Origin: a virus
Virus record (IMG/VR): IMGVR_UViG_3300043399_000529
Coordinates: 1-61,446 of that record
Length of the DNA: 61,446 nucleotides
Strand: one strand, 5' to 3'
Shown in pieces: positions 73-55,686 of the stretch. The notes beneath the pieces were generated by a model. The model was not told the origin of the DNA and made no database searches. It saw only the letters and a list, made by a program, of their open reading frames with translations. How positions within the stretch are numbered: the first letter of the stretch is position 1; every line of letters starts with the position of its first letter. A program made the translations under genes and the position numbers.

Positions 73-96
73 ATGTATCTCCTAAGCAATGTGTGT

Positions 97-124: not shown

Positions 125-173
125 CTCCAGCGCCCAAATTAGGACTGCTAAGTGTTTGATTTTGAACAACAAT

Positions 174-383: not shown

Positions 384-384
384 G

Positions 385-3004: not shown

Positions 3005-3024
3005 CGGATCATTTAATTGAAGCT

Positions 3025-19214: not shown

Positions 19215-19888
19215 TAACCATGTCCTTTCATGCTTAAGCAGATATCGTAGAATTCCTTTTTAAGCGGAGCATGTGTGTCGAATGCACCAAGCATAATTGC
19301 GGTTGTCATATCGCTTTCGTGCTCGCGTACACCACGCATTGTCATGCAGTGATGCTCTGCTTTAACAAGCACTGCGATGTTTTCAGTCTTTGCATACTTC
19401 TTTAGTGCTTCTGCAATTTGTGTTGTCATTTCCTCTTGAATCTGAGGACGTTCGCAAATGTGATGCACAATACGATTGAACTTACTAAGGCCAATTACTT
19501 CATCTTCTGGTACAATACCAACCCAACACTTACCGACAATGTTTTGGAAGTGATGAGCGCAAGTGCTGCGTACACTAATTGGTCCGGTAGTATACAAACT
19601 CTTATATCCCATGTTTGGGAATGCTGTTACTTTTGGTACTGGACGATAACGACCACTAAATGTTTCAAGAATAAACATCTTAGCAACGCGGCGTGCAGTG
19701 TCTTGTGTATTGTGATCGTGCTCGGTATCAATTACTAGAGACTGTAGCACACCTTGGAACTCGGCAGCAACTTCATCTACAAGTGCATCAAGTTCACCTT
19801 CTTGAATATATTGAGCAATGTTATCATTGCTATGAAATCTATCACCTGCTGCTAAAATGCGCTGGCGAATTTGCTCTGAAACTTTCAT
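19214..19888 (-). CDS. folE: FolE: GTP cyclohydrolase I
   Basis: 224 aa. Type I GTP cyclohydrolase: TCAHHFQNIVGKCWVG and EHHCMTMRGV give the zinc Cys and His set, and VIGLSKFNRIV and RPQIQEEMT are conserved family stretches. It converts GTP to dihydroneopterin triphosphate, the first step of the 7-deazaguanine route used by queD and queE. TAGGAG lies 8 nt before the ATG. A short GTAG/CTAC stem-loop with a T-loop precedes it in the gap. Confidence 0.92.
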   Translation of the reverse strand: MKVSEQIRQRILAAGDRFHSNDNIAQYIQEGELDALVDEVAAEFQGVLQSLVIDTEHDHNTQDTARRVAKMFILETFSGRYRPVPKVTAFPNMGYKSLYTTGPISVRSTCAHHFQNIVGKCWVGIVPEDEVIGLSKFNRIVHHICERPQIQEEMTTQIAEALKKYAKTENIAVLVKAEHHCMTMRGVREHESDMTTAIMLGAFDTHAPLKKEFYDICLSMKGHG

Positions 19889-40600: not shown

Positions 40601-41077
40601 ATCCAAGATCAGTCTACTATACAGTTCAGTTTAGACAACAGCACATGGTACACTTATAGTAGTAGCTATAGCGGCACATCAACTGAAATAGGAGTATATT
40701 GCTCCGGGGGGCCATTCACTTACAACGAAGGCGATACTATCTACTTTAGATACGACACTGGTGCTGCTCCGGTAGTATGGTGGACTACAGCAGACCTACC
40801 GGGTGGCAGTGCAGGTTTCCGCGGAGCAGTAATTGATTATCATGCTTATACTGGCGATGGAACTATCATTGGCACAATTCACATCGTGGATGACAGCGGG
40901 AACGAGAGTATCAGCCACACTGAAGTATCTAGCGGCAGCTCAGACAGCGAGAACGATGATTTGTGGTTAGTACAGAACGAAGGTACTATCAGCTATCGCC
41001 GCATAGATGGTGAAGCAAAGACGCTAAAGATACACTGGACTGCCAAAGTGTTTTACGGCAGTGAGTTTTATGATTGA
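37673..41077 (+). CDS. Large tail-fibre/adsorption protein with three 135-residue repeats
   Basis: 1134 aa. N-terminal domain (PIMLYKGTTNQVRLVVF, VDLTNYTVQVQLV) resembles BppU-type or baseplate attachment modules. Residues about 517-893 hold three copies, 135 residues apart, of a unit with R-x-N-N-x-x-I-Y-N, SPVGTLWN-DGW, a R-x-Y-x-x-F-Y helix, and NDKYY plus W; the second and third also share GGGFSY. C-terminal part is beta-rich (SSYSGTSTEIGVYCSGGPF). Long tail fibres usually bind the host, so this probably sets host range. Plus-strand, opposite to most genes. Confidence 0.75.
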   Translation: MQTIYAFSYNPVIATGTNTTGTNWRMAYQQPIMLYKGTTNQVRLVVFTVKQKVVDLTNYTVQVQLVDRETEEHFVTKTASITAPTSGVATITFTEEDLRNLQNRFYHLIAKLIGPSDGSSVVAGEILYLDDNYGAFTPITVENAWNYNPTSISTVDGIPEISFTNIRETPDSLDGQAGKFLRVNSASNAIEFADFLSFDRSIIPNINETFNLGDIGRRWGMVFANRVNVGNICIYGTQLGCENSPQLDFRVLSQTVRVTDNSTDPAHLVGDGVFVEFNDTTHDNDGPRLEVWYGEQDNPNDPPGQHSLDIRAAANSYVELASHDLNSFIGIDDIGPFIQTQWQADQSKSWRFLGDGELRLPSIGSRITSENSKLQIVMTFDDIRLTTTSADNVTTYQTIFDSSGKTFFPGDLLPGTTNFPDPDPTIQFNLGSPERPWKDLYLSNSTIYLGNVPISVDNTGTLTVNGNAITGGEVVTSPVQPYIELTNDPFIFNPYAGNLVTFTKDDYGNQVDQIDVNVAITRANNKGIYNPKLEADWDDTTSDGLSPVGTLWNKDGWSVLTNLNQRTYLSFYETFLRFGNNVLTAEAVMYDTANDKYYTFDFTQWGNSNIGAPLTYVRTQIDPVTGTQIGSAVTFIKPGYADPTQINDPIDTNLTIARGNNQSIYNIALEQGYSTAGDGRDSPEGTEWNADGWGQLRDVTQRTYDTFYSVLNQAIGDNVIGKELIMHDMINDKYYAVKFSSWTQNGEGGGFSYTRQLLNTNNLFVKPDNNNSVIDIFVEDVGEASGIGITRDNNNGIYNPYREEGWNNNLSPVGTLWNVDGWDDLSNITTRSYTNFYAAYGNGQLGNRVPGSRAIVYIPETNKYYAIQWLSWTQGGGGGFSYLRYELDITKLQEGVKFADGTVLKSATGLGRVKSSTSGNRRIEEVVGSKTVSVTQVTTQTITATASRSVVDDNRFWVSNTATDIAAIMNNFNAFGIQDQSTIQFSLDNSTWYTYSSSYSGTSTEIGVYCSGGPFTYNEGDTIYFRYDTGAAPVVWWTTADLPGGSAGFRGAVIDYHAYTGDGTIIGTIHIVDDSGNESISHTEVSSGSSDSENDDLWLVQNEGTISYRRIDGEAKTLKIHWTAKVFYGSEFYD

Positions 41078-41092
41078 TAGGAACAGACCAAC

Positions 41093-42004
41093 ATGGCAAA
41101 AATTAGAAAATTCGTAACAAGTCAAGTAGTAGGTAATAATGCTGATGAAAGCATTATAAATGAAATTCGCCCTTACGGTGAAATTGGTTTGTATCAAGGT
41201 AATTACATCGAGAGCATCGGCGAAGGCCGCTTAGAATTATTAATATTTGACGGTAAGAGAACTCACATACAAAGCAAAGTTCTAAGTCCAGGTATATTCT
41301 ATGGTTACGGCAACGACAGTGGTGATGGTTTTGGATTTGATACCATTAAATTAATACCGGATTCTACACTGTATTATAACAATAGTAACTATGGAAATGA
41401 TCAATATCTTGTAGTTGATCCAACTGCTCCTAACCACATACATATTCGTGCTGGTGGAACAATTGATCAATCCAATGCTGATTTATTCTTAGGTGGCGAG
41501 CAAACCCATGTTAAGATTAGTGATGGTTACGACACTGTTACAATAAGAACTAGTCAAGAAGGTGAAGGGGTCATCAACCGTGATTGGGTCTTTGACAACA
41601 ACGGAGACTTAACTTTCCCAATGGGTGGTGCTATAGAATCTGCTGGTATGGGTTGGACTGGATTTACTAACGGTGTAACTGGACAACCTCTCAGCATAGT
41701 TCATAAAAGCGCAAACATAAACTATGTAGGTCAATCTCTTTCAGAAATTTTTCTCTTAAGCGAAAATGAAAATTCAGCAGGCAGTGTTTGGATAGCTGTA
41801 CAAGACCTAGCAGCAGAATCGTATAAACAATGGTCGTTTAGTTATGATGGGTCTGTAACTTTCCCAGATGCCACTGTACAGACAACAGCATGGACAGGTA
41901 TACCTGGGCCTTATGCAGATGATGCGGCTGCTGCTACTGCTGGAGTTGCGGTTGGTAAACCGTACTATCAAGTAAGTGGACAGGTATTTGTTAGACTAAC
42001 TTAA
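41093..42004 (+). CDS. Tail-fibre-like structural protein
   Basis: 303 aa. EYG-type beta repeats; WVFDNNGDLTFPMGG and WSFSYDGSVTFPDATVQTTAW are repeats typical of phage fibre proteins (DGSxxFPDxTxQTTA). Ends YYQVSGQVFVRLT. Follows the large fibre by 15 bp and is probably its partner. Converges with the minus gene ending at 42001 (4-nt overlap). Confidence 0.7.
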   Translation: MAKIRKFVTSQVVGNNADESIINEIRPYGEIGLYQGNYIESIGEGRLELLIFDGKRTHIQSKVLSPGIFYGYGNDSGDGFGFDTIKLIPDSTLYYNNSNYGNDQYLVVDPTAPNHIHIRAGGTIDQSNADLFLGGEQTHVKISDGYDTVTIRTSQEGEGVINRDWVFDNNGDLTFPMGGAIESAGMGWTGFTNGVTGQPLSIVHKSANINYVGQSLSEIFLLSENENSAGSVWIAVQDLAAESYKQWSFSYDGSVTFPDATVQTTAWTGIPGPYADDAAAATAGVAVGKPYYQVSGQVFVRLT

Positions 42005-42429
42005 TCTATCTGATAGGTTTGTGCGAAGATATCTTTCTTAACTACGCCATAGTCATTCTCACCATGGCGCACAATATAATCATTGCCAGCAGTGTAATTA
42101 AGTGTTTCGCCCCAGCTAGTCTTAACAGCGCCATCGTGGTCAGCTAATTTCGCCATCTTAATAATCTTTTTTGGTGTAGCGGAACCGTTGCCATGATCGT
42201 CATATAGGTTAGCAAACTTTTCTGGAGGAACAGGATACTTTTCACCTTTAGGACCAGTAATGATCTTATATCCAGCTTTATACGCAACCGGGCCTTCTAG
42301 TGTTTGAATACTGCCATCTGCTTGGGCAGTTTCATAATTAATTGGATTAGCTCGCTTATATACTTTTTGTGCGCCTTTTGCAAACCAAGCATCGTTAATG
42401 TCTTCAAATAGATTAATCCAGTCTCTCAT
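42001..42429 (-). CDS. Late protein with two small beta modules and leader MRDWINLFE
   Basis: 142 aa from ATG at 42429 (ATGA overlap with upstream stop). Leader MRDWINLFED. The body holds two modules of the pattern TGPKGEKYPVPPEKFANLY and YIVRHGENDYGVVKKDIF, like SH3-type repeats. A late, leader-bearing protein of unknown role. Confidence 0.68.
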   Translation of the reverse strand: MRDWINLFEDINDAWFAKGAQKVYKRANPINYETAQADGSIQTLEGPVAYKAGYKIITGPKGEKYPVPPEKFANLYDDHGNGSATPKKIIKMAKLADHDGAVKTSWGETLNYTAGNDYIVRHGENDYGVVKKDIFAQTYQID

Positions 42430-42617
42430 TTCTTTTTCCCACTTTTCATATTTGCACACCAATGTGCCATACGTTGTTTCTCACCGCTACTATTTTTAGC
42501 AACTTGTCTTAATTTTGTCACGCTTTGTTTACAATTAACACCACTTCTTTTGGCAAGACCTTTACGACCTGGTTTCTTCCCATCAGCAAAGTTTTCTGTT
42601 AATTCTTTGATAAGCAT
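42426..42617 (-). CDS. Small basic leader-bearing protein, 63 aa
   Basis: Starts MLIKELTENFADGKKPGRKG; the first eight residues are identical to the next gene's start. The rest (SGEKQRMAHWCANMKSGKKK) is basic and Lys-rich. From memory the body is common in T4-like aquatic phages. Likely a packaged, DNA-binding protein. Confidence 0.7.
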   Translation of the reverse strand: MLIKELTENFADGKKPGRKGLAKRSGVNCKQSVTKLRQVAKNSSGEKQRMAHWCANMKSGKKK

Positions 42618-42619
42618 TT

Positions 42620-43531
42620 TTATTCCAATTTTAGTTTTTGTAGATAGTAATGAAAGTTCATATCTCTATCGCCGAGTCCATTCATACTTGGGTTAACTTT
42701 TGCAGTAACTCCAATTGTATCGCTATAATCTTCTACCTCTGGCTTTACTCTGTTTTTCCAATACCATACAGCAACTTTAGCAGCAATCTTAGGATCACTT
42801 GCCCACTTTGGATTATTTTCTAAATCGATGTTCAATGCTTTTCCTACACGACGATAGTTATCTCTTCCTGTAATTTGTATAAATCCACGACCTTTATATT
42901 TTAAGCCATCACCAGGGTTAACATTTCCAAGTATTTTTGCTTTTTCTGGTTTGTATTTTGGATCATATCTATTAAAATATTCTTTGTTTCCAACTTCAAC
43001 CAATCTTTGAAACCCTAACGTTTCATGTGCAACTTGTGCCATAAATTGTGCTAATTCTACACCCTTAATACCTGATTTGTATGCAGTAGATAATACTAAT
43101 TTTTCCATTTCTTTATTAGCATTAGTTGCAGTACTTGATGTAAGTTTTGTAGGTTCTTTTTTAGCTACTGGTTCTTGTTGTATATCACCGCCTGGTATAG
43201 TAATTTCTAATGGCGGTTTATCGACTGGAACTTCACGCGGTGCATCTCTTAGTTGACCAGTTAAGGCACCATATCCTAATGCGCCTGCCATTGCCCCTGC
43301 TGCGGCAGTGTTCTTGACTTTGTCCCAAATAGGACCTTCATCAATAACCTCACCTTTATACTTGCTTAAAAAATATCTTCCAGATTTGCCAAACTTAACT
43401 AAATTATCTAAAACCCAATCATTAGCAATCTTCTCTGCTTCTTCATATGAAGGGGCAGAGAAAGCGTAAAGAGATTTATATTGATTACGCACTACCCATT
43501 GCTTTGATTCTGTTAGTTCTTTGATAAGCAT
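42620..43531 (-). CDS. GH19-type lysozyme/chitinase-like protein with leader
   Basis: 303 aa from ATG at 43531 (TAATG overlap). Leader MLIKELTE, then a W-x-V small domain (QWVVRNQYKSLYAFSAPS), a hydrophobic linker, and a C-terminal GH19 domain: FMAQVAHETLGF (catalytic E), LKYKGRGFIQITGRDNY and NPSMNG. It cuts peptidoglycan or chitin. The leader and lack of a signal peptide point to a virion-carried enzyme, perhaps used at entry. Confidence 0.78.
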   Translation of the reverse strand: MLIKELTESKQWVVRNQYKSLYAFSAPSYEEAEKIANDWVLDNLVKFGKSGRYFLSKYKGEVIDEGPIWDKVKNTAAAGAMAGALGYGALTGQLRDAPREVPVDKPPLEITIPGGDIQQEPVAKKEPTKLTSSTATNANKEMEKLVLSTAYKSGIKGVELAQFMAQVAHETLGFQRLVEVGNKEYFNRYDPKYKPEKAKILGNVNPGDGLKYKGRGFIQITGRDNYRRVGKALNIDLENNPKWASDPKIAAKVAVWYWKNRVKPEVEDYSDTIGVTAKVNPSMNGLGDRDMNFHYYLQKLKLE

Positions 43532-44262
43532 TATGAACCTTTTTTGCCAGGAACGCAATTAGGTACTTCGCGGCCATTCTTCATTTTCTTACCAACCATA
43601 TGATAACCTTTCCAGCAAGGATCATCTTTTGCCTTCATTTTTTTAGCTTCACTCATAATATTGACTACATGATAGTGATTAGGTCTGCCTTCAACTCTTT
43701 GAATTTTAACTTTATCACCGCTGTTAAATGAAGTAAACCCTTTACCGCGCTTAGACTTAATAGTTACACCATCATTATTGGCACTAACAATTTGTCCCAT
43801 GCGACCAGCAGCATTACTAAAAACAGTTGCGCCGTTCTTTAATAACTGAAATATTTCTTGGTTAATATTTGAACTGTTATCATCACCATACTTTGCAGTG
43901 TCTTTAAATTCTTCAACTGGTTTTTCTCCGCCGGTTGCTTGTCCACCAACTAAATCTTTATAATTGTCCATGCATAGATATTCATGTTCTTTCATCAATG
44001 CAATTGCACGCTCAGTTACATCATGTAAATCCATGTCTGTCTTTGCGTCTTCTTTGGCATATTCCATGATACGCAAGAATAACGGAATATCCATAGTAAC
44101 TTTATCTGTTGGATTTTCAGCTTCTTTGTTTACGCTTTCACCCCCAACCATCTTTTTACCTGGAGTACCAGCATCTTTAGCTTTCCAATAACCTGTAAAT
44201 TTAGGACCAGTAGACTTGTCCATTGCTTCGTCAAGTTGCTTCATCAAATCATTTAATAACAT
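43531..44262 (-). CDS. Late leader-bearing protein, 243 aa
   Basis: Starts MLLNDLMKQLDEAMDKS. Middle: MDIPLFLRIMEYAKEDAKTD (helical), then an SH3-like TVFSNAAGRMGQIVSAN...SGDKVKIQRVEG, and a short end with CWKGYHMVGKKMKNGREVPNC, a small Cys/Lys module I have seen in related phages. Contains IMSE before that module. Unknown role. Confidence 0.68.
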   Translation of the reverse strand: MLLNDLMKQLDEAMDKSTGPKFTGYWKAKDAGTPGKKMVGGESVNKEAENPTDKVTMDIPLFLRIMEYAKEDAKTDMDLHDVTERAIALMKEHEYLCMDNYKDLVGGQATGGEKPVEEFKDTAKYGDDNSSNINQEIFQLLKNGATVFSNAAGRMGQIVSANNDGVTIKSKRGKGFTSFNSGDKVKIQRVEGRPNHYHVVNIMSEAKKMKAKDDPCWKGYHMVGKKMKNGREVPNCVPGKKGS

Positions 44263-44693
44263 TATATTTCTTCCCCAGATCCTAAATTAATAAATCCAAC
44301 AGTATCTACTATCAATGCTTGTTTTCCAGCAATAACAATAATATCACCAACGTCCATACTTGTATGATCTACACCTAAACGGTCAATCATTTCACTTGCT
44401 TGATTTTGTGGGCTCCAATTTTCAGCCTGCATCATATTCCATATTTTTTCTGGATTTGTTTCTGCTAAAGTTCCAAGTAATACGTGTGTACGACTTAAAT
44501 TTTTTAAGTCGGGTAATTTACCAGCAGATTGTAAACTTTTAAAGCCAAGTTTCATATCGTGACTAAATTCTTCTTTCCAATACCAAATTTGAGTATTACC
44601 TGGGGAATAGTTATCTCCAGCGTCCTGTAAACTATTAAAACTAATAGCTTCCATTAGAATATCTAAATATTTCCTCATAAGCGCATTCGCCAT
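44262..44693 (-). CDS. Late leader-bearing protein, 143 aa
   Basis: GGAG 7 nt before ATG at 44693; starts MANALMRKYLDILMEAISFN. The end (VGDIIVIAGKQALIVDTVGF) is a beta module found, from memory, in other T4-like late proteins. AAATAAATA box at 44714-44722. Function unknown. Confidence 0.68.
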   Translation of the reverse strand: MANALMRKYLDILMEAISFNSLQDAGDNYSPGNTQIWYWKEEFSHDMKLGFKSLQSAGKLPDLKNLSRTHVLLGTLAETNPEKIWNMMQAENWSPQNQASEMIDRLGVDHTSMDVGDIIVIAGKQALIVDTVGFINLGSGEEI

Positions 44694-44713
44694 AACGAGT
44701 CTCCAATACAGTT

Positions 44714-44722
44714 TATTTATTT
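44714..44722 (-). promoter_or_regulatory. Late-promoter-like box AAATAAATA
   Basis: Minus-strand AAATAAATA 20 bp before the ATG at 44693, with the same placement as those at 48278 and 55713. Confidence 0.55.
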
Positions 44723-44740
44723 GATTTTAGCTTTAGTGTT

Positions 44741-45448
44741 ATGCTAAAAATAGCTATGAAACCTTCATATGTATTTGATGTAGATGGCACTTTAACCCCC
44801 AGCAGGAGTAAGATGGATCCTGCGTTTCAAACTTGGTTTTCTAACTGGCAAAAAACACATGATACTTACCTTGTAACAGGCAGTGATTATCCTAAAACTG
44901 TAGAACAAGTTGGGGAAGAAATAATCAACAATAGCAAAATGCTGTTTAATTGTTGCGGCAATGAAGTACGTATTGGTAAATTGATTACTCATCAATCAGA
45001 TTGGCAACCTCCACATGCTCTCATTGATGCTTTAGATGAAGAACTTACTAAAAGCGAGTTTCCTGTAAAAACAGGTAAACATATTGAAATTAGAACTGGA
45101 TTAGTTAACTTTAGTATTGTTGGACGTAATGCTAATAAAGAGCAGCGTGAACAGTATATAAAGTGGGATAACGAAACAGCAGAAAGATTAAAAATAGCTG
45201 TAAGGTTAGGAAGTAAGTTTGAAGATATTGATTTTATGCTTGGAGGCGATACAGGAATTGATATTTACCCAACGGGTAAGGATAAGCGTCAGGTACTAGA
45301 CTTTATTAAAAGCGAAAACCCTGTTATATTCTTTGGGGATAAAACATTACCGGGGGGAAATGATTACTCCCTGGCTGTTAGTGTTGATATTGCTCACCGT
45401 GTTGAAAATTGGGAGCATACTTGGGAAATTTTAAGACTTACTTCTTAA
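44741..45448 (+). CDS. Eukaryotic-type phosphomannomutase-like HAD enzyme
   Basis: 235 aa (ATG at 44741; 44756 also possible). FDVDGTLTPSR (nucleophile D13, D15), CCGNEVR, KHIEIRTGLVNFSIVGR, GGDTGIDIYPTGKDKR and FFGDKTLPGGND match the alpha-PMM (PMM2) family from end to end, near its full length of about 246. These enzymes interconvert mannose-6- and mannose-1-phosphate for GDP-mannose. A sugar supply for glycosylation is likely, fitting the glycosyltransferases here. Unusual in a phage. Confidence 0.82.
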   Translation: MLKIAMKPSYVFDVDGTLTPSRSKMDPAFQTWFSNWQKTHDTYLVTGSDYPKTVEQVGEEIINNSKMLFNCCGNEVRIGKLITHQSDWQPPHALIDALDEELTKSEFPVKTGKHIEIRTGLVNFSIVGRNANKEQREQYIKWDNETAERLKIAVRLGSKFEDIDFMLGGDTGIDIYPTGKDKRQVLDFIKSENPVIFFGDKTLPGGNDYSLAVSVDIAHRVENWEHTWEILRLTS

Positions 45449-45533
45449 AGTACTTGCTAATCCATTCTGGTTGTGGCAAAAAGTTCCAACCAACGATTAG
45501 TCCAACTGCACATCCAAGTATAAAACTTACCAT
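45438..45533 (-). CDS. Tiny membrane protein, 31 aa
   Basis: ATG at 45533 gives MVSFILGCAVGLIVGWNFLP and ends WISKYFKK-TAA. One transmembrane segment with a glycine pattern and a basic end. From memory similar tiny proteins are common in T4-like cyanophages. It overlaps the end of the convergent PMM gene by 11 nt and starts 2 bp before the next gene's stop. Confidence 0.65.
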   Translation of the reverse strand: MVSFILGCAVGLIVGWNFLPQPEWISKYFKK

Positions 45534-45535
45534 TT

Positions 45536-45919
45536 TTATCTCCTTACCAATGGTTTCTTAACAAGTGGCTTAGCAACAGTAGCTACTGAACCTGCTCCCA
45601 TACCACCTGCACTTACGCTTTCTGGCATACCAGCAGTTGGCATCATTGCAGTTGTATCTGGCATTGCAGGAGCACCTAGCTTATCGTATTCGAGATAATC
45701 TGCTGTTGACTTTATGTAGTCAGCAGCAAGTGTAATCTTGCTTTGCATCCAACCTTCAATGCCTTCTTCTTCGCTAACGTTCTTAAGTAACTTGTGTAGT
45801 CTAATAGCATCATTTGCTAAATGATATAGCTGAGCACGGGCCATTTGAACTTCATGGTCACGATCAATGTTCATTGCCTCATCGCTGAGATTTTCTTTAA
45901 TTTGCTTCTTCTTAGTCAT
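45536..45919 (-). CDS. Conserved late protein, 127 aa
   Basis: ATG at 45919 (MTKKKQIKENLSDEA). A helical core (EVQMARAQLYHLANDAIRLHKLL, then WMQSKITLAADYIKS) and a low-complexity tail rich in Ala/Met/Pro. From memory a well-conserved small protein in T4-like phages, function unknown. Late box at 45942-45949. Confidence 0.72.
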   Translation of the reverse strand: MTKKKQIKENLSDEAMNIDRDHEVQMARAQLYHLANDAIRLHKLLKNVSEEEGIEGWMQSKITLAADYIKSTADYLEYDKLGAPAMPDTTAMMPTAGMPESVSAGGMGAGSVATVAKPLVKKPLVRR

Positions 45920-45941
45920 AACTGACATCTCCAATATAGTG

Positions 45942-45949
45942 TATTTATT
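45942..45949 (-). promoter_or_regulatory. Late-promoter-like box AATAAATA
   Basis: Minus-strand AATAAATA, 22 bp before ATG 45919. Confidence 0.5.
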
Positions 45950-46259
45950 CAATTTTAAATTTAATTATTTGCTTATCTTCTGGGTGAATAGGAAAATTTA
46001 TCTCTTTTGTAGTTTCGTTATACGCAAGAACTATTTTTTCTATCCAAATTTTAGCATACGTAGCTGGTTTTACTTTTTGAATAGTTAATGTGTGTTCCCC
46101 AGAATCAAGCTCTGCAAACATTTCTTCTTCGATATAGTTTGTATTACAATCAGCCCAAAATTCTCTTTCGTTATAGAGATTATCATTTATCCAAAAACGA
46201 TAAACTGGACATTCGTATTCATAATACGCATAAACGTGAGCGTTAATTTGTACTATCAT
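45945..46259 (-). CDS. Small CBM-like beta protein, 104 aa
   Basis: MIVQINAHVYAYYEYECPVY; RFWINDNLYNEREFW, HTLTIQKVKP, KIWIEKIVL: the same order of strands as the start of the proteins at 34703 and 55725. Probably a virion surface domain. Confidence 0.6.
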   Translation of the reverse strand: MIVQINAHVYAYYEYECPVYRFWINDNLYNEREFWADCNTNYIEEEMFAELDSGEHTLTIQKVKPATYAKIWIEKIVLAYNETTKEINFPIHPEDKQIIKFKIE

Positions 46260-46501
46260 TATTCTATATCTTTAATTAAATCAACTTGTTTAACTAACTG
46301 ATGGCTACAATGTCTATCAGCTTTAATGGTTGATTTTTTAATCTTTTTAGCTTTTGCTTCTACTTGTCTAACTTCTTGTTTGGTGAGACTTTGTCCAATT
46401 ATTTTACCCAAATATTGAGCTGCTTTTCTCTTGATGGTTCCTGGACGAGATAGAGGTCTGAATGGAGCAGTTAATGCTTCCAAAGTATCTTCTATTTTCA
46501 T
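46259..46501 (-). CDS. Small basic leader-bearing protein, 80 aa
   Basis: MKIEDTLEALTAPFRPLSRP, then AAQYLGKIIGQSLTKQEVRQ and a lysine-rich segment. Start resembles the late leader family (TLE-A). Function unknown. Follows the 580-aa gene by 14 bp. Confidence 0.62.
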   Translation of the reverse strand: MKIEDTLEALTAPFRPLSRPGTIKRKAAQYLGKIIGQSLTKQEVRQVEAKAKKIKKSTIKADRHCSHQLVKQVDLIKDIE

Positions 46502-46515
46502 AATAGTCTCCCATA

Positions 46516-48258
46516 TTAATCCCTTTTACCACGACCAATACCTTTTGTTGCTGCTTTAAGTTTTGGTTTTCTTGCAGTAAGAGGAGAAGGTTTTCTTTTT
46601 GGTAATTCTTTATCAGTTGAAATCTCATCTGGAGTTTCATCTGGTATTTCATTCCCTGTTGGAACCGGAGCTGATGCAGATTGTAATCTAAAACCCATTC
46701 TTCCTTTTTGACCTGTAGCAAAATAGGTTTTATTAAAAAGAACTGGTTTTCCAGAAAATTCAGTAGGGAACTTTCCGTAGTAATCAAGTGTCATTGAATC
46801 ACCACTGACAGTAGTTTTTGTAACTAGCTGTAAGTAGTTGTTATTGTTCAATGCTTTTAACATTGCAGCAGAAAAATCTGGGTCATTATTTGCTGCGGTT
46901 AATACTTTATTAGCAACGGCTGCAAGCGCATGATAATATATTCTGTAATCATCTCTTGCAGCCGCATCTGGTCTAATTCCTTGAGATTTAATCAAATCTC
47001 TTAATTTTGCATCTTTAACATCTTTAATGCTTCTGCTCTTGCGTGAAATAGTTAAAACAGCTTGTGCAGTTGCTTCATCTATGATCTTGTACTCAATAGC
47101 TGCTTTGAGTATACCAGCGTCAGCTTTGTCCTTTGCTAGGTATCTCATTATGCGTACAGCTCGTGGATGTTCTTTTTCAAGTTCAGGTGTAACTTGAGCG
47201 TACACGCCAGCTAATGAACTAGCAGCGCCGCCGCCTGTATGCATTTTTGTGCTGATTTGTAATTGCTTACCATCAGCGGTTTTAATTAAACTATCCCAAA
47301 GTTCTTGTCGTGTATTAGCACTGAATCTAACTTGTCCACCTACAAAGCTACCAATGCCTACAGCATTCATAGCTTTTTTAATATCGCCGCCAGTAAACTT
47401 ACCGCTTAGTAATGCTAATGGTCCTAAGTATTCTGCACCATACTTACTAATAACAGTAGCATAATGTGTTCCGTTATTGATTGGTGCAATTTTACCAGAC
47501 GCAGCAAGATCAACAGCTTGGTCCATGACGTCTGCTAGCTCTTCATCTGGTGTACCATGTGTAACTGATCTAATTCCGTTTTTAACAGTTTTTGCTAATT
47601 CGTTCTTGTTCCTAAAAGTTTCATCCATAATGATGTCACTAGGTTTAATAGCAATAGATTCGCTGCTTGATCTCTCAGATTTATATTTGTAACCGTTAAG
47701 TGTTAACCACTTTCCGTGTATAGTAGTATCTGGAACTTTATCAATATATCTTACCCAATATTGACTTTTATTATGCGGATCTAATACATGTGCAATAATT
47801 GCAGCTCTTGATCTAGCAGTTGGGTTATTATCTAGTTTCTTAACAGCGGCTTTTGGAATAGCAGCAGCAATAGCTTTTTCTAACTCTTCTGGTGAGTTAA
47901 ACGCATTCTTATTCTTTGGGCTTATTACGCTAATTTCTTGTACAGTTAGTACGTCTTTTAAGTTTTGTGGATTAACGTATTGATCACCCTGTACACGAGC
48001 AGTAACGCCTCTAGACTCATCTACAATAGACTCGGTTAGTCCAAGGTTCATTAACTTGTTTGGGGTTGAATTCTTAGCAGCAGAGCTGTGTAGTAATGGG
48101 GGAGGAAACTTATTTCCAAACTTCTTTGCTTGACGCTCTACTTCGCCAGGCTTAATATCTTTTGTAACACTCATTGAAAAACGAGGGTCATTCGCTTCTT
48201 TTTTATTCTTAGCGATATACCCAACAGCAGCAGTTTCAAATAAATCTTTGATTTTCAT
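46516..48258 (-). CDS. Large late leader-bearing protein, 580 aa
   Basis: Leader MKIKDLFE then TAAVGYIAK. Next a segment (PRFSMSVTKDIKPGE) I remember from other T4-like late proteins. The middle (FVGGQVRFSANTRQELWDS, D322, then QLQISTKMHTGGGAA, K338) looks like a nuclease-type strand order, but the acid-x-K pair is atypical, so that idea is weak. The tail is Lys/Pro/Arg-rich. Own late box at 48278-48286. Probably packaged in the virion. Confidence 0.65.
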   Translation of the reverse strand: MKIKDLFETAAVGYIAKNKKEANDPRFSMSVTKDIKPGEVERQAKKFGNKFPPPLLHSSAAKNSTPNKLMNLGLTESIVDESRGVTARVQGDQYVNPQNLKDVLTVQEISVISPKNKNAFNSPEELEKAIAAAIPKAAVKKLDNNPTARSRAAIIAHVLDPHNKSQYWVRYIDKVPDTTIHGKWLTLNGYKYKSERSSSESIAIKPSDIIMDETFRNKNELAKTVKNGIRSVTHGTPDEELADVMDQAVDLAASGKIAPINNGTHYATVISKYGAEYLGPLALLSGKFTGGDIKKAMNAVGIGSFVGGQVRFSANTRQELWDSLIKTADGKQLQISTKMHTGGGAASSLAGVYAQVTPELEKEHPRAVRIMRYLAKDKADAGILKAAIEYKIIDEATAQAVLTISRKSRSIKDVKDAKLRDLIKSQGIRPDAAARDDYRIYYHALAAVANKVLTAANNDPDFSAAMLKALNNNNYLQLVTKTTVSGDSMTLDYYGKFPTEFSGKPVLFNKTYFATGQKGRMGFRLQSASAPVPTGNEIPDETPDEISTDKELPKRKPSPLTARKPKLKAATKGIGRGKRD

Positions 48259-48277
48259 TACATAAGTTCCTATGTAA

Positions 48278-48286
48278 TATTTATTT
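48278..48286 (-). promoter_or_regulatory. Late-promoter-like box AAATAAATA
   Basis: Minus-strand AAATAAATA 19 bp before ATG 48258, inside the end of the HAD nucleotidase gene. Confidence 0.5.
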
Positions 48287-48799
48287 CAAAGCAACGGCTA
48301 ACTGTTTTGCTAGTTCCTCTAAACTGTTTTCATCTGCTTGATATTTGATACCAATTCCACCAGCGTTATTCCAAGCTGTAATATTTTTGCGGAAATCATC
48401 AATTAGAATATTAGGAATACCGTTGGATACAGCATATTTGTACTTTTCATGTTCAAATATAATGCCATCTGGTTGAACAGTAATATGCTTATTTAACCAT
48501 TCGCGTTTGCCTTTAATGCTACCTGCACGATCAAAGTTTAATGGGCTAGATAATATCTTATATCCACCAGCCATTCCTTTTACCATACGCAATAAACGAT
48601 TAGCAGTTTTAAATGGGGGTAAATCTCTAAACAAATGATATGCATCTGTATTTTGGAAAAAAATTTCCCATTGCTGATCAGACATATCATTGTAATGTTC
48701 TACGTCGTGAATAGCCCCAACGTGATTAAACAAGTCTGCTAATACACCATCCATGTCAACATATACAGTAGGTTTGGTAGTTATTTCAAATATCTTCAT
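48281..48799 (-). CDS. HAD-family 5'(3')-deoxyribonucleotidase-like protein
   Basis: 172 aa. VYVDMDGVLADL (nucleophile D and acid D), ILSSPL, and ILIDDFRKNI (motif IV) match small deoxyribonucleotidases, which remove phosphate from dNMPs. The start MKIFEITT resembles the late leader family. Overlaps the methyltransferase gene by 14 nt. Confidence 0.78.
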   Translation of the reverse strand: MKIFEITTKPTVYVDMDGVLADLFNHVGAIHDVEHYNDMSDQQWEIFFQNTDAYHLFRDLPPFKTANRLLRMVKGMAGGYKILSSPLNFDRAGSIKGKREWLNKHITVQPDGIIFEHEKYKYAVSNGIPNILIDDFRKNITAWNNAGGIGIKYQADENSLEELAKQLAVALK

Positions 48800-49322
48800 T
48801 TAAATCTTTCTTACAAAGTTCAAGATCAATGTAGTATTCAGACATGGAAGAAGCGAGTATTCTAAATCTTTTTTCAAAGATCTCTTTCCATTCCTCAGCT
48901 TTTTTAAGACAAATATGTGCGTTCCACCCATTGTTTAAAACTCTAGTTGCTGGTACTGTTGAAATTGATATGAAAGCATATTTCTCAATAACTCTTTCTA
49001 AATCATCTAAAACATTATTGAGACAATCTGGTTCAACATGTTCAATTACATCAATACAAGCAACCATTTTGCACGGTTTAGGACTAGTGCTCCATTGCGG
49101 AATACCTGGTTCATATTTATGAACCACAATATTGGGATTTAATTTTTTTAATACCTTTTCTAAATTACCAACTCCTGATCCGTAATCTAATAATTCATTT
49201 AAATTATATTTAGATAATATATCAAAGATACGAGGGGCGTAGTAAACGGAAGCAACACCCCATTGACTAATTGAGTGTTCTTTTTCTAAAACAGATCTAT
49301 AATAATCTGTTACTAACGTCAT
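48786..49322 (-). CDS. Class I SAM-dependent methyltransferase
   Basis: 178 aa. LLDYGSGVGNLEKVL (motif I), MVACIDVIEHVEPD (motif II/post-I) and NGWNAHICLKKAEEWKEIF. The substrate is unknown; a small-molecule or sugar methyltransferase is as likely as a DNA one. Overlaps neighbours on both sides. Confidence 0.78.
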   Translation of the reverse strand: MTLVTDYYRSVLEKEHSISQWGVASVYYAPRIFDILSKYNLNELLDYGSGVGNLEKVLKKLNPNIVVHKYEPGIPQWSTSPKPCKMVACIDVIEHVEPDCLNNVLDDLERVIEKYAFISISTVPATRVLNNGWNAHICLKKAEEWKEIFEKRFRILASSMSEYYIDLELCKKDLNEDI

Positions 49323-49465
49323 TGCTCACTTTCCATAGCGCGATGCCAATATCGTTTAACAATTTCTTCTTTATCTTTATCTGTATAGCTATCTGGAATA
49401 TCTTTTCCTTTTAGCTTATTCCAAATAACTTTAGCTGTTTCATCGTTAAACTTTTTGTCTGACAT
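49319..49465 (-). CDS. Small protein, 48 aa
   Basis: ATG at 49465 (MSDKKFNDETAKVIW) shares a base with the stop of the giant gene (TAATG). Ends WHRAMESEQ-TGA. The longer open frame up to 49555 is a shadow of the giant gene's end. Helical, no motif. Confidence 0.62.
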   Translation of the reverse strand: MSDKKFNDETAKVIWNKLKGKDIPDSYTDKDKEEIVKRYWHRAMESEQ

Positions 49466-52400
49466 TAGTCTATCTCCCCGGTATACTCCTGCCCACCTAG
49501 TATACACGCTTTTTGCATTTCTGTTAACTCTTTTTTTGGCTCTTCTTTTTGCCAAACAAATGGTTTATCTGCTGCTTCGATGTATTCTTTTACTGTAGTT
49601 GGCTTTTTGATTCTTTCAAATGTATAGGCTACAATGCCTCTATCAACTTTCCTGTTTTTAAATTTAAAAGTAGGAATAATTTTTGGTAACATTTTTGTAG
49701 ATGCATCGTAGAGTTTAACTCGACTTAATTCATTTGCATAAGAAGCAAAATCAATTTTAGTAATATTTTCGTATTTGCTTAAGTATGTTTTAATTACAAG
49801 CATCACAGTAGTTAAGACTTTAAATGCATCTCCAGTGTTAGTTACTTTAATGGTTCCATCTTCATCATTTTCGGTAAAAGCAGAGAAAGAAATACTAGCC
49901 ATATTTGGTTTATTTTTATCGTTTACACTAATTAATACTATATATTCAACTCCAGCATCTGTAACAAAGTCAGCAGTATATTCTCTCATGTCTCCTTCTG
50001 CTGTAAAAGGATATGGTTTGTTAGCAAGTTCAGTTACAACTTCTTTTGATTCTGCGCTTGGTATTCTAACAGTGCCATCATCTTGATCAACGGCTGCAAC
50101 AACACGATTATTTTCCCTTCCCCATCGTAGCGCAAGTTGAGTTGCTTCCTGACGACTACGGGCAGAAACATATGTTAAAACATTATTATCGTGATCATAG
50201 ACTGTCCAACGACTCCATTGACCTTCGTTTCTACTAGCTACAGCTTTTATATCGTCTGGTGTTGCTACTCTTGCTCCTCGAGGACCACCATAAACTGGAT
50301 TATTATTTTCCCACTCAAACCCTTTGCTTAATGCCTCTTTAGAAGAAATTGCTTTTACAATAGTAAAAGGATTGCCGTTTCTATCAAGTATTGCCCAATC
50401 AATTGGTCCTCTTTTCTTTGCTAATCTAAGTTCTTGCTTTGCTTTTAGTTTCATTACAAGTTCTGCTTTTGATATACTACCACTTGCAAACATACTAAAC
50501 AATTTAACTACATTATCTTCATTTTCATTATTTTTTGCAGAATACAATAACTTATAAAGTTTCTTAGCATACTCTTGCTTTGCTTCATTTGGATCAGCAG
50601 CAAGAGCCATTACACGGACATAACGCAATAATGTATTCTTAATCTTTTCAATTGCTTCTAGATAGTTACCGCCTGCACTGCGGAACTCAATATAACCTTT
50701 CTTAATGTTAACGCTAACGTACTTGTCTCCTCTTGGAACAAGTGCATCATCAACCATCTTTAATGCTGCTTTATTAAGTCCACTACGTAATGTTTCAAAT
50801 ATAGTTGGCATGTTACGCATTACATATGGGCCAGTTTGTGTTTGCATCTTGTCAAGTGAGCTACGTGCATAGCCATTACCTAAACGACCAAACTGATCTA
50901 GTACGTACTTGTCACCAAGGAACAATATTAGCTTAATGTAATCAACGTTTTCCATTTGTGGAATGCTTACACCCATATGGAAACCAGTCGAGCTATCAGT
51001 ATATGCACCGTGATTATTCATCCAAGTTAGTACTACATCTAGCTTTTGTAGTGCTTGTTCTAATGGTAGTGGAGGACTTACTAATTCTAATCCGCCTTCC
51101 CCTGCACTTTCATCAGCATCGATACTGCTATCAGTTTCTAAATACCAAACACCACCTTCTCTGTTGCTCTTAAATGCATGATAGTCCGCGGCAAACTTAA
51201 CAGGCATACCTACAGCGTTTTTAATTTCATCTGCTACTTCACTCATTGCTTGTTCGTCAACTTCGCCGCTGCTAGTTTCTGTCCAGTGTGGCCAATCCCA
51301 CCCAAATCTCTCTGCCCATTCGCTCATCATTGACAAACTGTTATACTCTAAGAAACCTCTTAGATCATCCCACTCAGACATGTAATCATCCCTTAGTGAT
51401 TGTACAACGTCATCGTAAGTGCTATCTTGGTCTTTAATACTCTTTTCAATTTCTTCTTCGTCGTAAGTAGTATCTTCTTTATATTTTCTTCTTAATTCTT
51501 CTTGCCAATAATCAGATTCGAGTTCATTGTCAAAATCCATCATAATGTATTCGTTTAGTTCGTCTGATACTTCTTCAACAGCTCGTTCAATAGTTCTTCT
51601 TGCTTCGCTATCCCTAAAGAATGATATTAAGTCATCTTGCATAGCACCCATTGTTGAGCTTGTTACACGCTCGTCCATGTCATAATCTGGTTCGCTATCC
51701 CCGCCATTCTCATCTGCCATGTTAGGAACAATCATTTCAAACTCGAACCCAACAGTAGTTGATTTTGCAATGTCACTTGCGCTAAACTTTTGTAGCGCAC
51801 CTGGACTCATATCAATTTCAGTTAGACGTTGTTCGTGATTTTCTAAACTGAACTCTTTGTCCTTCATGTCGTTAAGCATATCGTAGAGTTTGGCAATAAG
51901 TCCATTGCTACGTAATGCTTTCCAAGCTAGATTTTCTGCACCAAATTCACCAGTGCTATGTAATCCAACTTGACGATACTTCTTAAGTGTATGACGTAAC
52001 TTTACAGCAAGATTATAATCCTGTGCTTTTAGTGCTTTTAAGATCAAAGCTTTTAGTACATCATACTTTTCACGAACGTTTGATTCATCAACTTCAACGG
52101 TAGTTTGTTCTGGACGCTTAACCCAATCATTGTTCATAATGCTGTAAATGCCATTGCTTACATGATCTTCGTTTGCATTTTGTACGTATAACTCTACATC
52201 AAACCCTTTGATCTTGTAGTCATGCTGTTCATTATACTGGAACTTCTTTGCATCAAATAGTTCACGATAAATTGCGTCATCATCTACTTTTGGAAGATCA
52301 ACAATTAAGTGTAAGTCAATGTCACTGTTTGGTGTGTAGTTGTATGCGGCATTAGATCCACTAATTGTAATGTCCTTCAAGTTAGGAAGTTCAATTCCTA

Positions 52401-55400
52401 TGAAGTTTTTAAAGTCCTCTGCAATATCCAACAACTTTTGTCTTACAACAGGAGACATCCTACCTGCGCTATTAAACAATTGTGGATTTAGTTCATCGTT
52501 AATAGTTGGCATAAAGTCATCTGCAGGTGTACCGCCTTCAACAAAGTATCGTGTTTGATATTTGCCGTAATTCTTTTCGTCGTGAGCAGTTGCGATGACA
52601 TACTTGTAACTGTCATCCATCATTAGTATTTTCTTAATACCGTAACCAAGACCATCACGTTTACGTTTAATTACAAAGTCAACGTTTTCTAAGTTTGAAA
52701 TTTTATCACCAAATTGCTTTTTTGCATTTGATAAAATATCAAGCATATCTTTTTGTGACAATGTACGTTCTGCTAATCTTTCAAGCAAGTGTCCTGAAAT
52801 ATATACTGGTCCATCAGCAAAATCAAAGTTGATGTAATACTTGTCTTTTTTAGGATTTGCTTTTTCAGTAATCTTAGTTGGATTTTCCTTAGCAAGTATT
52901 GCCTCATATTCTGCATTTGCTTGTCTAATAGCAGCAAGTGCTTCTTGTGCTCTTTTTTCACTATCTGCTAACCCTGGCACCGCTTTAGTCATCTTGTCCC
53001 AAGGAGACTTAGCTTCACCTAATTTAACTCCCATACCCTTTGCAGTAAGCATCATGAGTTTCTTAATCCAATCTTCGTCTAACTTACCACCAAAACCTTT
53101 CATCCAAGTATCTAGTTTTTGTTGTAATGATAGATTGGGATCTTTTAGTGTGTTACGCAATGCTGTAAAACTAGCATCAATGCCACCTAAAGCAGCACCG
53201 CGTGGAATAGCAATAACATCATAATCAACTTGATCTTGTGTTCCACCAAACTTTGCAAGTGCAGCAGGATCCTTCATACGCTTTTCTAAAGTATCCATCC
53301 ACTTCTTAAAACCTTCGTAACGGTCAGTGCCAACCATCAACACAATTTTCTTGTAAGTACTATCAGAAGGTAATACTAATTCTTTTTCAATTTTCTTAAC
53401 TGGACTTGGTACAGTTACACCATCTGGACTTACAATAAGTTGGAAGATGTTTGCGTACTCGGGATACATTTTCTTCCAAGTAGCCAACTTTACTTCTGGT
53501 GGAATTGGATCATCTGGTCCAGTCTTGCTGCTAATGTAAACGTATGGGTCACCGCCAAGTTTCTTAGCAGCGGCAATAACAGTATCAATTACCTTTTGAT
53601 GACCAATGTGACCAACAAAACTACCAGCAGTAACAACGGCAGCTTTGGTTCTATTGCTCCCAGTTGTTGGTGCTTTTTTAATCTTTGCAGCCATTGCACC
53701 TTTCATTTCAGTGCTAGTAACTTTTGCAAGCTGACCATTTGGCATAGCGATAACTAAACCTTCAATAGTGCTGCCAAGCTTGTCTTTACCTTTAATGTTA
53801 GGACTGTTAATGATAGCATCGCTAATTGCTTTTCGAGCTGCTGTTAATATTTCTTTTGCTTTTGCTTTTGCAGGATCATTTTTCTTTTTGCTTGACAGTG
53901 CTGTACGTAATGTATCATCCATCCTAGCAATTGGTTCTACAATGCTTTTAACATCAATATCACTGTGCTGTAATTCAGTTCCAATTATTTTAATATTTGG
54001 TGTACTTTTAGTAATAAGTTTTTCTATGATTGTATCTGGTAATCTTTCACCAGTAGAATATGTACTTGCAATAATAGGAACAAGTGTCATTTGCTTGCCA
54101 AGTTTTTTAGAATCATACGGTATGTTTACAAACTTAAGTCCAGTATTAGTCTTTTCAGCCATTGGGTTGTACATCATTTCTGCTTGTACAATTGTATCCT
54201 TAGGTAATTCTTTTATAAAATCACTGTTTACAATTAAGTTAAGTGCTTGATCGTATTTTTCAGCACGAGCAATTTGTTCTTCACTGCCGTTATTATCTCT
54301 AGCATATTTTTCAAACATGCCAATATTATCAGCATAAATTGGATTTGTAACACGACTTGTCATAAAGAATGGTTTACCGCTTTGATCTTTACCAAAACGT
54401 ATACCAGCACCATCTACTTTAAGTGTGATTGGAATGTTATCGAGCGTGCCTCCATTCTTAGCAATTGCATCAACAAATGCCAGGAAGTCTAAATCCTTCA
54501 TTTCAACAGTTGAACCAGGATTATAAATGTGCTTAATACCTTGACGCTTATAATCTGGGGCATCTGCTTCTGTAATTGATTCTGCTTTATACTTAGAATA
54601 ATAATCAGCTAAGGTTTTTGCTAATTCATTTTTGTTAATTGAAACTTTTAGTGTATCTATAAGTTTATTGATAGCGATTTCTTTTTCACGTTTGTCAGTT
54701 GCTGGGTCACCTTTGTATAGTTGCTGAGCAGCAGGGCCAAACAACAAAGCCATAAATGCTTGTGTAATTTTGTTTTTATCTTCTGGTGTAAAATATTTGT
54801 TAATTAATGCTAATACGCCAACAAAACTGCCTAAATACTTTTCTTCACCTTTAGTTGGTTTACGACCAATTAAAAGTGTAAACATGCCTGAAATATCTGT
54901 TACATATTCGCTTTCACTTGCTGGAACTTCTTTATAAATTCCAAGTCCATCATCGGCTACTGCTGGTTTCTTTGTTTTGGGATCAATTACTGGTTCAAAC
55001 TTTTGTCGAACACCGCCAGTTACAGCAAAGGCCAAATCACTTGCTGTTACTTTCTTTAGCTTAGTCTTCATTTGAATGTAACGTTCTTTAGCATCTTTGT
55101 GTGTTAAAGAACGTAGTAAGTACTTGTGGAACACGCCTTTAATGCCTGCGCTTAAGTCTTCCCAAGCACTGCTATGACTAAACTTGCTCCACTCAGTTGG
55201 ACTACCTTTATCATAGTCTACAAGTTCCATATCAATCTGTACGTTTACAGCAGGATCTTTAAATTGCCACAAGCTAATAAATGTATCCTGTCCTGGGTTT
55301 GGTTTAAAACCAATTAACTTTGCTGGACCAAATTGTTTACCTGTTGCCCTAGTTAAAAAGTCCTTAGCTTTATCGGCTAGGTTCTTATCAACCATAGTGT

Positions 55401-55686
55401 CAATATCACCAACACTTGACTTTACTTTAGTAAACTGATCATCTGGAATTTTTACATTGAAAAAGTGGAAGGCGCTACCACTTAAAAACTCTTTGTTTTT
55501 AATTAATTCTGGGCTCCAAAGAGGAACACCGTATGCTTTATTAAATGCACTGTTAATGATTTGCAGTGCTTTATCTATCTCAGCAACTACTGCGCTACGG
55601 GAAATCTTGTTTAAGTCTAGACGTTGAGCGGCAATGCCGTCTATCTCAACATTGCCGCCTTCGTTAAGTATTGTTTTATTGATCAT
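49465..55686 (-). CDS. 2073-aa multidomain late protein (ligase, NTases, amidoligase)
   Basis: Domains in order: N-terminal region (1-370) unrecognised; ATP-dependent ligase-like domain (about 395-660) with LKVDG (K423), AEMMY (E503), EGLVIAMPNGQLAKV (E642, K655); nucleotidylyltransferase (about 680-840) with VGHIGHQKV and VGTDR; unrecognised 941-1060; polymerase-beta-like NTase (1108-1130) with ISGSNAAYNYTPNSDIDLH; amidoligase-type domain (about 1309-1700) with GFEFEMIVP and GGLELVSPPL and STGFHMGV; two W-x-x-x-D modules (1763-1855); C-terminal domain. Sites of form (I/L)xE lie at or near most domain borders (373, 891, 941, 1290, 2056; also VTE at 1886). Own late box. One uninterrupted frame. 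Confidence 0.75.
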   Translation of the reverse strand: MINKTILNEGGNVEIDGIAAQRLDLNKISRSAVVAEIDKALQIINSAFNKAYGVPLWSPELIKNKEFLSGSAFHFFNVKIPDDQFTKVKSSVGDIDTMVDKNLADKAKDFLTRATGKQFGPAKLIGFKPNPGQDTFISLWQFKDPAVNVQIDMELVDYDKGSPTEWSKFSHSSAWEDLSAGIKGVFHKYLLRSLTHKDAKERYIQMKTKLKKVTASDLAFAVTGGVRQKFEPVIDPKTKKPAVADDGLGIYKEVPASESEYVTDISGMFTLLIGRKPTKGEEKYLGSFVGVLALINKYFTPEDKNKITQAFMALLFGPAAQQLYKGDPATDKREKEIAINKLIDTLKVSINKNELAKTLADYYSKYKAESITEADAPDYKRQGIKHIYNPGSTVEMKDLDFLAFVDAIAKNGGTLDNIPITLKVDGAGIRFGKDQSGKPFFMTSRVTNPIYADNIGMFEKYARDNNGSEEQIARAEKYDQALNLIVNSDFIKELPKDTIVQAEMMYNPMAEKTNTGLKFVNIPYDSKKLGKQMTLVPIIASTYSTGERLPDTIIEKLITKSTPNIKIIGTELQHSDIDVKSIVEPIARMDDTLRTALSSKKKNDPAKAKAKEILTAARKAISDAIINSPNIKGKDKLGSTIEGLVIAMPNGQLAKVTSTEMKGAMAAKIKKAPTTGSNRTKAAVVTAGSFVGHIGHQKVIDTVIAAAKKLGGDPYVYISSKTGPDDPIPPEVKLATWKKMYPEYANIFQLIVSPDGVTVPSPVKKIEKELVLPSDSTYKKIVLMVGTDRYEGFKKWMDTLEKRMKDPAALAKFGGTQDQVDYDVIAIPRGAALGGIDASFTALRNTLKDPNLSLQQKLDTWMKGFGGKLDEDWIKKLMMLTAKGMGVKLGEAKSPWDKMTKAVPGLADSEKRAQEALAAIRQANAEYEAILAKENPTKITEKANPKKDKYYINFDFADGPVYISGHLLERLAERTLSQKDMLDILSNAKKQFGDKISNLENVDFVIKRKRDGLGYGIKKILMMDDSYKYVIATAHDEKNYGKYQTRYFVEGGTPADDFMPTINDELNPQLFNSAGRMSPVVRQKLLDIAEDFKNFIGIELPNLKDITISGSNAAYNYTPNSDIDLHLIVDLPKVDDDAIYRELFDAKKFQYNEQHDYKIKGFDVELYVQNANEDHVSNGIYSIMNNDWVKRPEQTTVEVDESNVREKYDVLKALILKALKAQDYNLAVKLRHTLKKYRQVGLHSTGEFGAENLAWKALRSNGLIAKLYDMLNDMKDKEFSLENHEQRLTEIDMSPGALQKFSASDIAKSTTVGFEFEMIVPNMADENGGDSEPDYDMDERVTSSTMGAMQDDLISFFRDSEARRTIERAVEEVSDELNEYIMMDFDNELESDYWQEELRRKYKEDTTYDEEEIEKSIKDQDSTYDDVVQSLRDDYMSEWDDLRGFLEYNSLSMMSEWAERFGWDWPHWTETSSGEVDEQAMSEVADEIKNAVGMPVKFAADYHAFKSNREGGVWYLETDSSIDADESAGEGGLELVSPPLPLEQALQKLDVVLTWMNNHGAYTDSSTGFHMGVSIPQMENVDYIKLILFLGDKYVLDQFGRLGNGYARSSLDKMQTQTGPYVMRNMPTIFETLRSGLNKAALKMVDDALVPRGDKYVSVNIKKGYIEFRSAGGNYLEAIEKIKNTLLRYVRVMALAADPNEAKQEYAKKLYKLLYSAKNNENEDNVVKLFSMFASGSISKAELVMKLKAKQELRLAKKRGPIDWAILDRNGNPFTIVKAISSKEALSKGFEWENNNPVYGGPRGARVATPDDIKAVASRNEGQWSRWTVYDHDNNVLTYVSARSRQEATQLALRWGRENNRVVAAVDQDDGTVRIPSAESKEVVTELANKPYPFTAEGDMREYTADFVTDAGVEYIVLISVNDKNKPNMASISFSAFTENDEDGTIKVTNTGDAFKVLTTVMLVIKTYLSKYENITKIDFASYANELSRVKLYDASTKMLPKIIPTFKFKNRKVDRGIVAYTFERIKKPTTVKEYIEAADKPFVWQKEEPKKELTEMQKACILGGQEYTGEID

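Follow-up and report, generated by a model that had tools for sequence, protein, structure and literature searches.

Short (L/I)xE leaders and module-junction sites in a gene block of an uncultured giant phage probably mark T4-style packaged cargo

The 61,446-base window analysed here, which is the entire IMG/VR virus record IMGVR_UViG_3300043399_000529, carries at positions 42001-55686 a block of minus-strand genes whose products often start with a short leader ending in (L/I)xE. Judged from the gene sequences, it is highly probable that this block encodes cargo which a giant phage, a relative of the Agrobacterium jumbo phage Atu_ph07, packages into its head by a T4-type system, and this T4-style cargo probably consists in part of polyproteins. 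A preliminary description of the window had proposed T4-like leaders that a gp21-type protease removes by cutting behind (L/I)xE. Grafts of leaders onto leaderless homologues, an LxE site in the capsid proteins, the protease of relatives and a virion gene cluster of Atu_ph07 speak for this proposal, whereas the register of the leaders does not. The B-family DNA polymerase of the window (29329-31989, minus strand) has its nearest cultured-phage match in Atu_ph07 (46% identity). IMG/VR holds many relatives (polymerase identity 69-98%), four of which lie on contigs 316-353 kb long, and a megablast of the window found no close phage relative. An overlapping contig of 67,257 bases is identical across the 21.7 kb compared and adds ~19.5 kb past the window end.

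In eight of the 13 minus-strand genes of the block, (L/I)xE lies at most 16 residues from the start. The leaders are MRDWINLFE, MLIKELTE (twice), MLLNDLMKQLDE, MANALMRKYLDILME, MTKKKQIKE (weak), MKIKDLFE and MINKTILNE. The genes concerned, together with an 80-residue protein that has a related start and two genes lacking a leader of this form, are listed here; a slash follows the E of a motif.
42001..42429, minus strand: PGDYG-family protein of 142 residues (Pfam PF14083, E=5e-9), leader MRDWINLFE (42403-42429)
42426..42617, minus strand: 63-residue protein, leader MLIKELTE (42594-42617) followed by an NFADGKKPG...HWCANMK module
42620..43531, minus strand: GH19 (chitinase/lysozyme-type) protein (Pfam PF00182, E=2.4e-13), leader MLIKELTE (43508-43531)
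43531..44262, minus strand: unknown protein, leader MLLNDLMKQLDE (44227-44262, LDE end; relative MLLESLLKEFDE), with a CWKGY...VPNCVP module at its C-end
44262..44693, minus strand: unknown protein, leader-like MANALMRKYLDILME (44649-44693, ending in DILME; relative MSRGLMKKYIDILME)
45536..45919, minus strand: unknown protein, weak leader candidate MTKKKQIKE, C-end MPE/SVSAGGMGAGSVATV (relative MTKKRIKEGLSDE)
46259..46501, minus strand: 80-residue protein, leader-like MKIEDTLE (46478-46501; relative MKIKNTLE), whose TLE end, with T at -3, is not strictly (L/I)xE
46516..48258, minus strand: 580-residue protein, leader MKIKDLFE (48235-48258) followed by a GYIAKNKKEANDPRFSM module (relatives MRFKEIAE/AVGYIPKNKKEAND and MKIKELLE/GVGRITPYN)
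49465..55686, minus strand: multidomain protein of 2073 residues (the giant protein; PHROG and Pfam hits), leader MINKTILNE (55660-55686); leaderless homologues start with Met followed by GGN
48281..48799, minus strand: 5'(3')-deoxyribonucleotidase (NT5C; Pfam PF06941, E=2e-9), starting MKIFEITT without a cleavable E (relative MKIYELAG)
44741-45448, opposite strand to the block: HAD-like gene, no leader

The leaders named in the preliminary description are present as described (MLIKELTE in two genes, MKIKDLFE, MRDWINLFE and the DILME and LDE endings), except that the TLE ending falls outside (L/I)xE. Of the contents it gave for the block, the GH19 and giant proteins were recovered with their leaders and the nucleotidase without the E. 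Five of the 13 minus-strand genes lack an (L/I)xE leader. One leader type stands on unrelated mature proteins, namely the GH19 protein, the 63-residue module, the 580-residue protein, the giant protein, a cytidylyltransferase and ART-like proteins (the ART label being our own reading of a YRG motif). The PGDYG-family leader is kept in relatives (MRDLLNLFE, MRQWINLFE). Upstream of the leader-gene starts, some ribosome sites are clear and of the GGAG type and some are weak. No match to the 580-residue protein (46516-48258) was found in the phage collection.

Counting only (L/I)xE with E at positions 6-12, the leader occurs in 7 of 13 block genes and in 7 of the 78 genes elsewhere in the window (Fisher p=4.6e-4), a value that is descriptive only because the block had been picked for this feature. 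A broader set comprised 2754 non-redundant gene starts from the relatives, Atu_ph07 and the window. Here the motif M-x-[hydrophobic]-x-[EDQN]-[LIVFM]-x-E was found at 46 starts, compared with 17 of 10940 internal Met (11-fold, p=1.7e-19). Column-wise permutation of residues among genes, which preserves N-terminal composition, gave five expected motif starts and a maximum of 14 in 1000 permutations. Leaving out Atu_ph07, 22 starts were observed against 2.8 expected (permutation maximum 9). At gene starts (L/I)xE peaks with E at position 8 (2.5-fold), 9 (2.0) and 10 (1.6). It is the relatives that provide the independent statistical support. The T4 ten-residue register (hydrophobic residues at 4 and 7, I/L at 8, E at 10) was not enriched, with 4 of 2754 starts and 6 of 10822 internal positions (p=0.13). 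Set beside the ten-residue T4 sequence cited in the preliminary description, the leaders are mostly shorter, at 8-9 residues, and stand in a different register.

On comparison with leaderless homologues, the leader is evidently a separable graft at the native N-terminus of two domains. Leaderless versions of the giant protein's first domain occur in the Vibrio phages pv27 and SRILMA (MGGNVSV), in Stenotrophomonas phage Marzo (MGGNVVI) and in Xanthomonas phage X1 (MGGNAVF). Forms with a leader are MINKTILNE/GGNVEI in the window, MQLFDLIRNKKPLLE/GGNVSS in L041 and MKLSELMFILE/GGNTTT in Campylobacter phage CP220. These leaders vary in sequence and length, and all end in [LI]xE precisely at the start Met of the leaderless form, so that cutting behind the E would give back the native start at GGN. 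Of the cytidylyltransferase, K64-1, CBB and Atu_ph07 have forms with no leader, and forms with a leader are found in G003 (MFLTEIFE), L006 (MFLTQLFE), Prochlorococcus phage P-SSM2 (MKSFSQFLTE) and Syn19 (MKKFSAFLNE). The two cyanophage leaders fit the T4 ten-residue register.

Processing in the head is also suggested by the morphogenetic genes of the relatives. LxE stands immediately before [SA]A[TS]AGxT in every one of the 71 related major capsid proteins that were examined; the capsid-protein site of Atu_ph07 reads LME. The segment after LxE aligns to residue 13 of mature T4 gp23, which places the predicted cut about a dozen residues from the T4 cut. LxE is accordingly the predicted maturation site of the capsid protein in the relatives, matching the specificity expected of the protease. 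An S77 (gp21) protease was found in Atu_ph07 and in four large relatives; among these is G012, which also has a homologue of the giant protein and whose protease keeps the SRG motif in an alignment to the solved structure of T4 gp21. No member of the PF04586 protease family was found in the window. Three gp22-like scaffolds contain 17, 16 and 25 [LI]xE compared with 7.2, 6.1 and 10.4 in shuffles (2.4-2.6 times), a richness like that of a scaffold degraded by cleavage.

Virion data are available for Atu_ph07, in which mass spectrometry identified 131 virion proteins, mostly from three gene clusters, with 29 in CDS 31-76 (PMC6102473). The leader motif is present in 11 of 48 genes of this first virion cluster and in 13 of 798 elsewhere (p=9e-9), which is support at the level of the cluster, not protein by protein. 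The signal comes mainly from ART-like (YRGM) proteins that are encoded in a tandem array and begin with M(K/R)WxQL(T/N)E. Among ten ART-like paralogues, the leaders are 75% identical, the stretches that follow 21% and the domains, counted from YRG, 40%, so the leader is more strongly constrained than the enzyme. A Pfam search of one plain member gave no hit. A stand-alone amidoligase of Atu_ph07 with the leader MRWQDISSKKLTE (record positions 155929-157431) is encoded ~15 kb from the capsid gene gp215 and, by our feature count, lies inside the second virion cluster. The main text of the Atu_ph07 paper contains neither 'prohead' nor 'N-terminal' and apparently does not mention the leaders (PMC6102473). 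The array itself (record positions 39484-50592) holds about ten tandem ART-like genes with near-identical leaders, the first of which also matches the Zeta toxin/kinase family.

The alignments further indicate, as a new result, that modules of fused proteins adjoin at [L/I/V]xE sites. The giant protein unites several enzyme domains in one large chain (Amidoligase_2, cytidyltransferase and further PHROG regions). Its domains, of which the nucleotidyltransferase-like (NTase-like) and ligase-like assignments are motifs read by eye, are given with the junction sites of this protein and of the GH19 protein.
Residues 10-360: NTase-like
Residues 385-660: KVDG ligase-like
Residues 680-890: HxGH cytidylyltransferase
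Residues 1062-1281: NTase
Residues ~1300-1700: amidoligase
51817..51825, minus strand: internal site LTE1290, preceding the amidoligase module (IDMSPGAL); the 83% relative has LLE at this place
54568..54576, minus strand: internal site ITE373, at the NTase/ligase-like junction; the same in L039, and stand-alone NTase genes end nearby
53014..53022, minus strand: internal site LGE891, behind the cytidylyltransferase; L041 is homologous as far as 895
52864..52872, minus strand: internal site ITE941, close to where a segment that relative L039 lacks (~935-1055) sets in
43337-43345, minus strand: internal site IDE/GPIWDKV of the GH19 protein; G010 has IEE/GPVWDKV behind an unrelated upstream region

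LTE1290 stands where the leaders of stand-alone amidoligases end (IIDE/VSMSP in G003, KLTE/LKMNS in Atu_ph07), and it has counterparts in other fusions (LEE/VAMSP in L055, LFE/VKMTS in L052). The NFADGK...HWCANMK module (55 residues) lies directly after [L/I/V]xE in 15 of 15 contexts, that of gene 42426..42617 included, and the upstream sequences are mostly unrelated. In relatives it stands behind other leaders or ends unrelated proteins; in G010 the GH19 part and this module form one open reading frame, joined at LNLNE/NFADGK. In an all-against-all junction scan, 19% of sites were shared where leader proteins were involved and 5.5% otherwise, the rows being non-independent and including start-calling artefacts among DNA polymerases, and only clean module cases were used. 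The idea that every [LI]xE of the giant protein is a cut site was rejected, their total lying below the shuffle mean. AlphaFold models of residues 1-945 and 1056-2073 had mean pLDDT of 49 and 40 and were not used for domain borders; a sequence search for solved structures found none matching the giant protein.

Other modules were also seen to be mobile. CWKGYxxVGxKxKxGRxVPNCVP forms the C-end of window gene 43531-44262 and stands directly after leaders in L076, L091 and L116. The GYIPKNKKEANDPRYSM module is present in the N-terminal part of window gene 46516-48258, in L002 and L003, and at the C-end of the G003 cytidylyltransferase; it sits N-terminally, in the middle or C-terminally in unrelated proteins, in most cases immediately behind [LIV]xE. 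Small leader proteins and the C-ends of some cargo bear a segment resembling the mature N-terminal arm of the capsid protein (E/xx[ST]AGxTSxGxIATV): at the C-end of window gene 45536-45919, in G009 (74429-74599), at the C-end of Atu_ph07 39484-41820, and in L069, L091 and L106.

We propose the following course of events. A leader of 8-15 residues on each cargo would dock onto the prohead scaffold. A gp21-type (S77) protease would cut after [L/I]xE, with V at -3 tolerated, as the conserved junctions suggest, and the cut would free the cargo inside the head with its native N-terminus restored. In fused cargoes the modules would be split at the same sites, several proteins being released per chain. 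The freed enzymes (the muralytic GH19 protein, nucleotidyl- and cytidylyltransferases, the ligase-like domain and amidoligase) would then travel into the host with the DNA. Nucleic-acid repair or host modification would suit them as a role there, and wall entry would suit the GH19 part.

Several observations weigh against cleavable leaders and junctions on packaged cargo. In G010 the start of the GH19 orthologue, MLIKDLLQ, lacks the E. The S77 family, which the preliminary description had suggested seeking elsewhere in the genome and which was located in the four relatives and Atu_ph07, was found neither on the 61 kb window fragment nor on the 95 kb relative G010. A single paralogous family supplies most of the Atu_ph07 cluster signal. 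A separate 3-fold excess of [LI] at position 3 with E at 5 indicates that N-termini have a bias of their own. The 8-residue motif occurs in 1 of 434 genes in G009 and is absent in G012; the form of the leader differs among relatives. Finally, the counterpart of ITE373 in L041 is VAE, not [LI]xE, and [LI]xE is less frequent in the giant protein (15) than in its shuffles (20). Because of these last two points internal processing, which we consider likely, is less certain than removal of the leader.

It is about an even call that this lineage packages enzyme polyproteins whose modules shuffle together with [L/I/V]xE sites, that the prohead protease both admits and dissects them, and that the capsid-arm-like modules may anchor to the inner shell. 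It is possible, though we put it forward tentatively, that the leaders are true capsid-targeting tags of which only the first is cut, the [LIV]xE at junctions being relics of past gene fusion. Fusion alone would leave junction sites that equal stand-alone leader ends, as observed, and some sites of the giant protein have been lost (LTE2056 is LTD in L039, and site 373 is VAE in L041). Relics do not readily account for the NFADGK module, which keeps its site in all 15 contexts despite different upstream proteins and with variation at -2 and -3 (LNE, LDE, IAE, LQE, IKE, VEE, VSE). The change from LTE to LLE between close relatives is likewise expected under selection for the site. We think it unlikely that the leaders are docking tags, for the head or another structure, that stay uncleaved. 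In T4 IPIII, Asp at position 10 stops processing while targeting remains (PMC9026906), and NT5C of the window has a leader-like start without E; yet leader ends match native N-termini exactly, and no feature is more constant than E with [LIV] at -3, which matches the capsid-protein site. Chance or an N-terminal composition bias in a block of ordinary accessory genes is very improbable, for although the motif is short, AT-rich N-termini are often MK- and I-rich and position 5 has some bias, the internal-Met and column-permutation controls and the graft and junction comparisons argue against it.

Elsewhere in the window, ARAGORN calls a tRNA with a CTA anticodon at 10092-10168, labelled tRNA-Pyl and possibly an amber suppressor. 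Regions 15393-17097 and 19214-19888 resemble QueE, QueD and FolE by eye, which suggests deazaguanine DNA modification. Rows of small minus-strand genes with xxFxLRWS-like tails, a recurring C-terminal motif, occupy window positions 1-3400 and are also found in L031.

If packaging of such cargo holds, [L/I/V]xE at leader ends and junctions would reveal packaged, probably injected, proteins of uncultured giant phages from their genomes, and many hypothetical genes would become candidate first-contact effectors. Very long phage proteins are then predicted to be able to exit the head in pieces after cutting, not as a single chain. Literature searches, which covered subscription journals only in small part, found no report of such leaders in cyanophages or giant phages, nor of packaged polyproteins.

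Entry into the T4 head requires no more of IPIII than its first ten residues, which gp21 removes, and Alt and the internal proteins are ejected into the host (PMC9026906); the T-even internal proteins are a diverse set with the tag alone in common (PMC3012670). The block resembles them in its short leaders ending in (L/I)xE on unrelated proteins, and the relatives in their S77 protease, gp22-like scaffold and gp23 capsid protein; the ART-like cargo of Atu_ph07 may be compared with Alt. Unlike in T4, the leaders mostly have 8-9 residues in another register, cargo types are many more, sites recur at module junctions of fusions, and V is apparently tolerated at -3. Ejection proteins of the giant phages SPN3US and phiKZ are head proteins whose propeptides are removed by a prohead protease (PMC5694885), as is predicted here for the leaders. 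Several of those propeptides exceed 100 residues, and a gp22 counterpart is not confirmed there (PMC5694885), whereas here the leaders are short and T4-like and a gp22-like protein is present. The CDS 31-76 cluster of Atu_ph07, the nearest cultured phage by DNA polymerase, has MRWEQLTE-type leaders on its ART-like array and differs in cargo content. Polyvalent proteins are large multidomain effectors embedded in virions (PMC9503650), and the giant protein resembles them as one very long multi-enzyme chain predicted to act early after entry. Unlike theirs, the delivery signal in the block is identifiable and candidate cleavage sites lie between the modules, so that it would add to the known polyvalent proteins a readable signal for entry and cutting.

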